Translations under genes and position numbers: made by a program
Origin: Cryomorphaceae bacterium
Lineage (GTDB): Bacteria; Bacteroidota; Bacteroidia; Flavobacteriales_D; Sanyastnellaceae
DNA length: 64,000 nucleotides
Direction of reading: 5' to 3'
NCBI GenBank assembly: GCA_016124575.1
Contig: WGNM01000023.1
Location: 62,001 to 126,000 of the forward strand
Notes under the pieces: generated by a model
What the model saw: only the letters and a program-made list of their open reading frames with translations
The model's database searches: none
Told to the model about the DNA's origin: nothing
In this document: positions 34,234 to 35,458 of the stretch, in pieces
Layout: the number at the start of each line of letters is the position of its first letter
How positions within the stretch are numbered: the stretch's first letter is position 1

Positions 34234-34261
34234 AAACCTACGCCCCTATCGGTGCGTGATG
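34234..34261 (+). repeat. Isolated partial copy of the tandem-repeat hairpin
   Basis: The 24 bases from AAACCTACGC to GTGCGTGATG match the core of the first tandem unit near 35010-35032. Here the copy lacks the following T run. It stands about 660 bases from the array, 86 bases after the sensor kinase stop. Confidence 0.75.
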
Positions 34262-34301: not shown

Positions 34302-34793
34302 TTAATGGTTCAGTTCATAGTTTTTTATTTCTAGTATAGTTTGATCCCAAATATTATGAATCTCATTGAACTCATAGCGCCAAGTATTATTGTAGAGCCA
34401 AAATAGATGTTCGTAACCTGCATAATAACTATATCGGGCGGGGTCTGATATACGCCATTGCAACGCTTCTTCTTTCGTAGGATAAACAGAACTTTTCCTA
34501 AACTCATCAATTTGAAATACTTCCATCAGTTCACGCAGATCATGAATTTTGAATAAGAAATCTTTTGGGGCATCAGGAAACTTTTCGTCTAATCGATCCG
34601 AAAACTCATTTCTCATTTCTAAGTTCAAGTCCAACTCTGTTGGGTTCTGAAATATGGCTCGTTTTATTTCTTCGGCATTATGAATGAGACTATCTACTGG
34701 ATCATGTTTTTTGGTGCGACGACCAAATATGAAATAGATTACGGCTAGAACTAATAAAATCAAGGCGAATACTGTGAGTAGGAAAACGTCCAT
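34302..34793 (-). CDS. Membrane-anchored protein of unknown function
   Basis: This protein has 163 residues. It has one N-terminal membrane helix (about 4-24) followed by a basic GRRTKK stop-transfer sequence, so the C-terminus should be cytoplasmic. The soluble part is helical and charged, with an aromatic-rich end (YSYYAGYEHLFWLYNNTWRYEF). I do not recognise it. The gene is more AT-rich than its neighbours and sits in the pocket bounded by repeat copies near tRNA-Cys, which suggests acquisition by transfer. Confidence 0.65.
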   Translation of the reverse strand: MDVFLLTVFALILLVLAVIYFIFGRRTKKHDPVDSLIHNAEEIKRAIFQNPTELDLNLEMRNEFSDRLDEKFPDAPKDFLFKIHDLRELMEVFQIDEFRKSSVYPTKEEALQWRISDPARYSYYAGYEHLFWLYNNTWRYEFNEIHNIWDQTILEIKNYELNH

Positions 34794-34916: not shown

Positions 34917-35342
34917 GTGCGCTCAAGCAGAGCTTGGAGAGTTATTGATTTAAAATTCTATCGTTCTCGGATTATTGCATGATCATGGGGGGAGCCCTTT
35001 TAAAAACCTACGCCCCTATCGGTGCGTGATGGTTTTTTTATGCCCAAATCGTGCGCTCAAGCAGAGCTTGGAGAGTGGATTATAAAAAATTCAATCGTTC
35101 GCGGATTATTGCATGATCATGGGGGGGGGCCCTCTTAAAAACCTACGCCCCTATCGGTGCGTCTTGGTTTTTTATTCCCAAATCGTGCGCTCAAGCAGAG
35201 CTTGGCGAGTTATTGATTTAAAAATTCAATCGTTCGCGGATTATTGCATGATCATGGGGGGAGCCCTCTTAAAAACCTACGCCCCTATCGGTGCGTCTTG
35301 GTTTTTTTATTCCCAAATCGTGCGCTCAAGCAGAGCTTGGCG
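34917..35342. repeat. Tandem array of three 134-135 bp units plus a partial fourth
   Basis: Units start with GTGCGCTCAAGCAGAGCTTGG at 34917, 35051, 35185 and 35320 (truncated). Each full unit contains a small hairpin around CAAGC-aga-GCTTG, the palindrome CATGATCATG (34978, 35112, 35247), a G run of 6-9, and a terminator-like hairpin (AAAAACCTACGC to TGCGTCTTGGTTTTTTT). Copies differ by a few substitutions and by homopolymer length. The plus strand reads through open in one frame, but this is an artefact of the repeat length. It occupies the gene-free stretch 34794-35387; the first 120 bases of that stretch are AT-rich with nothing recognisable. Confidence 0.92.
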
Positions 35343-35353
35343 ACGATTTGGGA

Positions 35354-35385
35354 ATAAAAAAACCCCGCATTCGCGAGGTTTTTTA
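35354..35385 (-). terminator. Terminator of tRNA-Cys
   Basis: On the minus strand AAAAAACCTCGCG-AATG-CGGGGTTTTTTT forms a stem-loop with one mismatch ending in a U run, starting 3 bases after the tRNA. The sequence beyond it matches the tandem-repeat unit in inverted orientation. Confidence 0.8.
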
Positions 35386-35387
35386 AG

Positions 35388-35458
35388 AGGTCCCGAGCGG
35401 ATTCGAACCGCTGTAGCAGGTTTTGCAGACCTGAGCCTAGCCACTCGGCCACAGGACC
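35388..35458 (-). tRNA. tRNA-Cys (anticodon GCA)
   Basis: The minus strand folds into a full cloverleaf: acceptor GGTCCTG with CGGGACC, anticodon stem CAGGT/ACCTG with loop CTGCAAA (anticodon GCA), and T arm AGCGGTTCGAATCCGCT. The unpaired base 73 is U, as expected for cysteine tRNA. The CCA end is not encoded. Length is 71 bases. Confidence 0.96.

Follow-up and report, generated by a model that had tools for sequence, protein, structure and literature searches.

A tandem array behind tRNA-Cys as a probable decayed member of a tRNA-linked insertion element family in Bacteroidota

Directly behind its tRNA-Cys gene, the window (the complete analyzed stretch of 64,000 nt) carries a tandem array which we consider to be a tRNA-linked insertion element that has decayed and been duplicated in tandem and that reads in tRNA-Cys direction (probability about 0.78). 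A mobile repeat had been among the readings offered in an earlier note on this DNA, and this reading is borne out by homologous elements behind many tRNA genes and by empty and filled sites at one orthologous locus. The window locus by itself would not prove the case, as its tail agrees with tRNA-Cys in AATCCGC only. The copy at tRNA-Cys is probably no longer mobile because its duplication of the tRNA 3′ end has decayed to this short match. The element would be non-autonomous and moved by an enzyme supplied in trans, with insertion at the T-loop of tRNA genes.

The tandem array behind tRNA-Cys

The array was delineated by TRF at positions 34917-35340 (period 134, 3.2 copies, 91% matches, score 732); no other tandem array in the window comes close to it in strength. 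The minus strand, in the direction of tRNA-Cys, is its sense strand. The structured array beside tRNA-Cys which the earlier note had described is thus confirmed, and its components (three full copies and a truncated fourth, the palindrome CATGATCATG, a variable G run, and hairpins with a T run) are all present. The element continues past the end proposed there and reaches position 35386, which leaves a gap of 0 nt to the tRNA. The tRNA-adjoining copy is the sole complete unit, with the order tRNA, P1 arm, P2 terminator hairpin, P3 long stem, P4 hairpin, P1 arm, C-run, and hairpin GATCATGCAATAATCC (Table 1). Copies B and C and the last piece are tandem duplications of a single 5′-truncated unit that is devoid of the P1 5′ arm, P2, and the P3 5′ arm.

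The small hairpin attributed to each unit exists but is only the tip of the long stem P3, which is complete at 35300-35364 and broken elsewhere. A compensatory alternation of the endings GGAGAG and GGCGAG is not supported; GGCGA belongs to the intact stem and GGAGAG is a change in decayed copies, and the fourth copy actually reads GGCGAC rather than GGCGAG. The terminal hairpin of the window copies lacks its first G-C pair (TGAT..ATCC).

Table 1. Features of the tRNA-Cys locus, with positions in the window.
Feature	Position	Strand	Basis
Host gene: tRNA-Cys(GCA)	35387..35458	-	ARAGORN, Rfam RF00005
P1 5′ arm TTAAAAAACC, immediately 3′ of the tRNA	35377..35386	-	position; P1 pairing test, 50 elements, z = -16.7
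P2 hairpin core; with the ensuing T run reads as tRNA terminator	35363..35378	-	same terminator behind tRNA-Cys in G001 and G002
P3 long stem, unbroken in the tRNA-adjoining copy only	35300..35364	-	own-partner test, z = -9.1
P3 tip AAGCTCTGCTT	35328-35338	-	part of P3, tRNA-adjoining copy
P4 hairpin	35279..35296	-	position and fold
P1 3′ arm GGTTTTTAAG	35268..35277	-	position, fold, P1 pairing test
C run, copy A	35255-35266	-	precedes terminal hairpin
Terminal hairpin TGATCATGCAATAATCC, copy A	35238..35254	-	member of the searched motif family
Copy B: decayed tail and filler, P3 tip, P3 3′ arm, P4, C run, hairpin (35103-35119)	35103..35237	-	
Copy C, truncated as copy B; hairpin 34969-34985	34969..35102	-	
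Last truncated copy: tail, filler, P3 tip (34925-34935)	34917..34968	-	
163-aa ORF, between array and 24-base fragment	34302..34793	-	no Pfam match
24-base fragment with P4 and part of P1 3′ arm	34234..34257	-	G000:C61:96234-96257, 100% identity, E = 1.8e-5

In the other species of the genus, the histidine kinase gene is located close behind tRNA-Cys. In the window, about 1.2 kb are found in addition after tRNA-Cys, consisting of the array, the 163-aa ORF, and the 24-base fragment, the latter being a remnant of one more element copy. The ORF is missing from the equivalent interval in G001, the other species of the genus. By analogy with loci L242, L158, and L128 (see below), it may represent cargo that was caught between copies. 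A second array is encountered in the same genome behind tRNA-Pro and carries a 17-bp copy of the tRNA 3′ end, AATCCTGCCGCCCCGAC.

Structure of the element

An intact element has a length of about 150 bp. Its P1 encloses P2, P3, and P4 and is followed by a linker, which is often C-rich, and by the hairpin GGAT-C.A-AT-GNA-AT, which occupies the place of a T-arm. With DNA parameters, the complete copy from the window is predicted to adopt a four-armed fold with P1 around P2/P3/P4 (-46.8 kcal/mol, z = -9.9). With RNA parameters, three successive hairpins are formed from the same arms (z = -7.2). Both folds are possible because the four arms are alternately complementary.

The specificity of the pairing was evaluated for 50 elements. 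When the first 22 nt are paired with their own P1 partner, the mean is -17.0 kcal/mol compared to -9.9 kcal/mol with re-dealt partners (z = -16.7), while the outermost 12 nt of P1 alone result in z = -15.9 and the corresponding test for P3 in z = -9.1; this own-partner test is alignment-free, but related elements are non-independent and the permutation scores are somewhat inflated. The mean folding z of these 50 elements is -6.4, and P1 pairing is predicted for 33 of them with RNA parameters and for 35 with DNA parameters. Stacked terminators, which the earlier note had also considered, are an apt description insofar as P2 and P4 have the form of terminators, but both are part of one four-armed structure in which the outer P1 arms pair specifically.

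In the terminal hairpin, the C.A mismatch is found in 41 of 41 exact matches (one family, 240 genomes). When the mismatch positions were freed in the search, those 41 matches were again all C.A, and neither a T-A nor a C-G pair occurred among the 16 further matches; the one inspected further match with a tRNA-like tail (from G286) has C.C instead. Hairpin variants of the type ATGC-GCA-GCAT have a stem that is longer on both sides. The fact that the mismatch is constant while the stem is compensated suggests that the terminal hairpin is recognized as a folded strand. On the opposite strand, the C.A mismatch would read as a G.T wobble. The enzyme acting in trans might recognize the folded single strand by its conserved C.A mismatch and its GNA triloop.

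tRNA-end copies and the empty site at an orthologous locus

In the elements of this family, the 3′ end of the respective host tRNA is repeated after GGATCATGNAATAATCC. This copy is exact in intact elements, extending from AATCC to the discriminator or CCA (17-20 bp). Overall, the tail is 53% identical to its own tRNA and 29% identical to tRNAs of other isotypes (z = 10.5), a difference not reached in any of 20,000 permutations. On the 5′ side of the hairpin, the bases below GG..CC match the T-stem of the host (z = 6.7). The stretch from P1 to the hairpin shows no signal of similarity or complementarity to its own tRNA (absolute z < 1.2).

The tRNA-Arg(acg) locus from one genus of Crocinitomicaceae is available in the empty (G347) and in the filled state (G405 and G397) with a shared flank; the family name is taken from named records that are identical to two of the genomes. 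The empty site reads GAATCCTTACGAGGTCAC / AAAGTAAGCTAAAAACCCCATTCC, with the slash at the junction. In G405, the same tRNA is followed by an element array and then by GGATCATGGAATAATCCTTACGAGGTCAC / AAAGTAATCTTAAAGTCCCATTCC, while G397 has a single element with the end CATAATCCTTACGAGGTCAC / AAAACAAGTTGAAAGCCCCATTCC. Between the tRNA and the native flank, the element and its 17-20 bp tRNA-end copy are thus either both there or both missing, as one block, and this orthologous empty site shows that the elements from Bacteroidota are insertions. At the filled sites, the 3′ end of the tRNA is intact, P2 is the new terminator, and the old terminator is located beyond the tRNA-end copy. The fact that the native terminator sits after the copy indicates that the terminator which is now next to the tRNA came with the element; an inserted element can replace the terminator of a tRNA gene.

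In Bacteroidota, no other clean empty site was found for which the flank is shared. The tRNA-Arg(tct) sites checked in a second genus are element-free, though not with a demonstrated shared flank. No element was seen to have moved from one tRNA to another within a genome. In G170, a serine-recombinase element sits behind tRNA-Arg, and the small element is found about 45 kb further on. The occurrence of elements at a distance from a tRNA is, at least in part, explained by such later islands.

Distribution in Bacteroidota

A search of the unit against its own genome and against relatives retrieved the nearby 24-base copy and, with 75% match and E = 1.3e-6, a homologue behind the orthologous tRNA-Cys of another genus, with pgk in the vicinity in both cases. 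This homologue has the same order of parts in a single occurrence. In the G002 homologue, the outer stem of P3 is altered on both sides (ATTCCCAAATCG/CGATTTGGGAAT vs. ATGCCCTTTGC/GCAAAGGGCAT), while the P3 tip CTCAAGC...GCTTGG is conserved between this homologue and the window.

Because the exact P4 sequence has no match in 84,980 genomes, the terminal hairpin is the only searchable part, and this diagnostic hairpin makes the elements from Bacteroidota accessible to searches. The pattern GATCATGNNNTAATCC resulted in 42 matches in 200 genomes, compared to 3 for the reversed control. For GGATCATGNAATAATCC, there were 41 matches in 25 of 240 genomes from a second family of Flavobacteriales and 0 in the control. 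Across sequenced species, the motif was encountered in Flavobacteriales, Bacteroidales, Chitinophagales, Sphingobacteriales, and Cytophagales; matches in other phyla are without a tRNA and look like coding sequence. A total of 58 non-redundant copies are found less than 200 nt behind tRNA genes, and the hosts across Bacteroidota comprise at least ten isotypes (Ser, Arg, Pro, Cys, Val, Tyr, Met, Leu, Lys, and His). Other loci have one to four copies, and the window has three and a fragment. Copies multiply in place, and their 5′ part is frequently lost.

None of the 11 motif matches in IMG/VR is behind a tRNA. Rfam reported the tRNA alone at gathering as well as at permissive thresholds, and no family of the type of the E. 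coli tRNA-linked repeats (TLRs) was among the weak matches. The recurrent neighbor genes at element loci are restricted to housekeeping gene clusters, and the motif sequence had no match in the literature searched.

At a few loci, genes are found beside or between element copies. Locus L128, from a Bacteroidales MAG, has four copies in a single orientation, two of which enclose 4.4 kb of cargo-like genes, with ORFs named by eye as an ArsR-like regulator, a permease, and thioredoxin-like and rhodanese-like proteins. At L242, the direct element copies at positions 651 and 2077 are separated by one ORF of about 306 aa, which is secreted-type by eye. A reverse-transcriptase-like ORF adjoins the element near position 2755 (reverse complement) of L229, which is likely a coincidence.

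Alternative interpretations

In line with the repeated small RNAs considered in the earlier note, the element could be a functional small-RNA gene, which would be transcribed by read-through of P2, processed to a tRNA-like 3′ end, and yield a stable structured RNA, insertion then being its origin and the RNA its present function. At the orthologous-looking tRNA-Met loci L213, L218, and L239, which share their gene order, the structure is kept while the sequence has changed, and the tail mimics a tRNA 3′ end. A precedent is provided by rrA/B/F of E. coli, for which transcription, processing, and in vitro binding to Hfq and CsrA have been reported; they are the only E. coli TLRs with a known function, and transcription has been shown for some members only (PMC8144298). 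However, P2 is a terminator right behind the tRNA, presence is sporadic (25/240 genomes of one family by exact motif), sequence is scarcely conserved outside the hairpin, the element is absent from Rfam, and the window copies are broken, so that we regard a small-RNA gene as somewhat unlikely. Plain slippage duplication of terminator hairpins beside tRNA-Cys, with no element involved, correctly describes how copies B-D arose from one truncated unit. As an account of the locus it is hardly credible and already contradicted by the homologue in another genus and by the tRNA-Arg(acg) comparison, because the unit has homologues behind other tRNAs and in other genera, with specific long-range pairing and with tRNA-end copies; the outcome for which the earlier note had reserved this explanation, a unit found nowhere else, is contradicted by its wide occurrence.

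Direct repeats of a tRNA 3′ end are a hallmark of tRNA-targeting islands with tyrosine or serine recombinases, and the elements might be att-like remnants or cis-mobilizable ends of such islands, with the tRNA 3′ end at attR. Cargo genes are found between copies in L128, L242, and L158, and the same tRNA-Arg carries a large island in G402 (L343, G402:C20), where a serine-recombinase-like ORF of 526 aa adjoins the tRNA. We nevertheless consider this unlikely, since a diversity of integrases would not be expected to have one hairpin in common across ten isotypes, the three islands examined at tRNA-Arg begin with a different sequence, and the element loci scanned have neither an ORF with the tyrosine-recombinase motif pair nor a recurrent neighbor gene. 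In addition, the element in G170 lies beyond the end of the island, as would an older resident. A hairpin with conserved mismatch and triloop is also reminiscent of REP/PATE-like elements, which a Y1 HUH transposase would move in single-stranded form. Y1_Tnp is found in about 18 of 25 element-bearing genomes and in about 106 of 215 others, but this co-occurrence is weak and unlinked, 19 Y1-gene regions examined have no motif within two mismatches, and a duplicated tRNA end is unexpected for insertions of the IS200/IS605 type. Such an origin thus seems quite improbable.

As a side observation, restriction-type genes are found deeper inside the island at L343.

Relation to other repeat systems

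The tRNA-linked insertion elements described here share features with several known systems. Integrative elements at tRNAs (tyrosine recombinase islands, tycheposon-like) likewise produce a second copy of the tRNA 3′ end without disrupting the tRNA, whereas the elements from Bacteroidota have about 150 bp, are gene-less, use one hairpin for many isotypes, and have no recombinase nearby. REP/BIME sequences with RAYT also have an imperfect palindrome in which a mismatch is conserved and which may act as single-stranded DNA; unlike these, our elements are few in copies, are located behind tRNA genes, and have no linked Y1 gene. Integron attC sites and CALIN resemble them as long folded single-strand sites in arrays, at times with genes in between, but the elements from Bacteroidota have a tRNA-end copy, R boxes were not recognized by eye, and no integron integrase was seen.

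TLRs have been known since 1978, and we know of no agreed origin for them. In E. coli, 22 such sequences at ten loci have been described, and their 3′-terminal 18-19 bp are identical to the upstream tRNA or rRNA (PMC8144298). Like the intact elements from Bacteroidota, TLRs are hairpin-rich, are located directly behind a tRNA or 5S gene, have an end copy of about 17-20 bp, and are found singly or as several copies in tandem. A TLR locus has one to five copies, and the array in the window has three copies and a fragment. As a further criterion, set here and not taken from published work, we looked for an insertion block with its own terminator opposite an empty paralogue or orthologue, which is the situation in G405 and G397 compared to G347. 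E. coli TLRs lack the GGATCATGNAATAATCC hairpin, whereas the elements from Bacteroidota have a defined four-armed fold and the hairpin with the conserved C.A mismatch, and sequence homology between the two was not detectable by Rfam. The elements from Bacteroidota are thus TLR-like by layout, not as proven homologues, and in this sense the array in the window is probably a decayed TLR-type element. They add dozens of intact members from many species to the TLR-type elements, and the origin of TLRs becomes testable.

We tentatively suggest, while considering the odds to be rather against it, that elements from Bacteroidota and enterobacterial TLRs could together form a single overlooked class of gene-less mobile DNA with two branches, which would insert at the T-loop (or the 5S end) as a folded single strand, copy the 3′ end of the target so that the host gene survives, and supply a new terminator. 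If this two-branch reading is true, the widely used rrnB T1 terminator would be part of such an insertion. In strain K-12, each unit at tyrV (rttR) ends with ...GAGT / AATCCTTCCCCCACCACCA, which is the same break point as in Bacteroidota (AATCC of the T-loop). The K-12 rrnB operon has the order 5S-CAAATAAAA-T1-hairpins-ATAAACTGCCAGGCAT-CAAATTAAGCAGAAGGCCATCC, and its layout (5S, T1, hairpins, 5S end copy, T2) is the same as that of tRNA, P2, P3, P4, hairpin, tRNA end copy, and old terminator. The matching empty site is rrnG, with 5S-CAAATTATGCGAAAGGCCATCC. The block in rrnB (L366), consisting of T1, hairpins, and the 5S-end copy, is absent from rrnG (L375), where a T2-like terminator is located directly behind 5S. 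The insertion logic of the elements from Bacteroidota also holds for rrnB compared to rrnG, with T1 inside the block.
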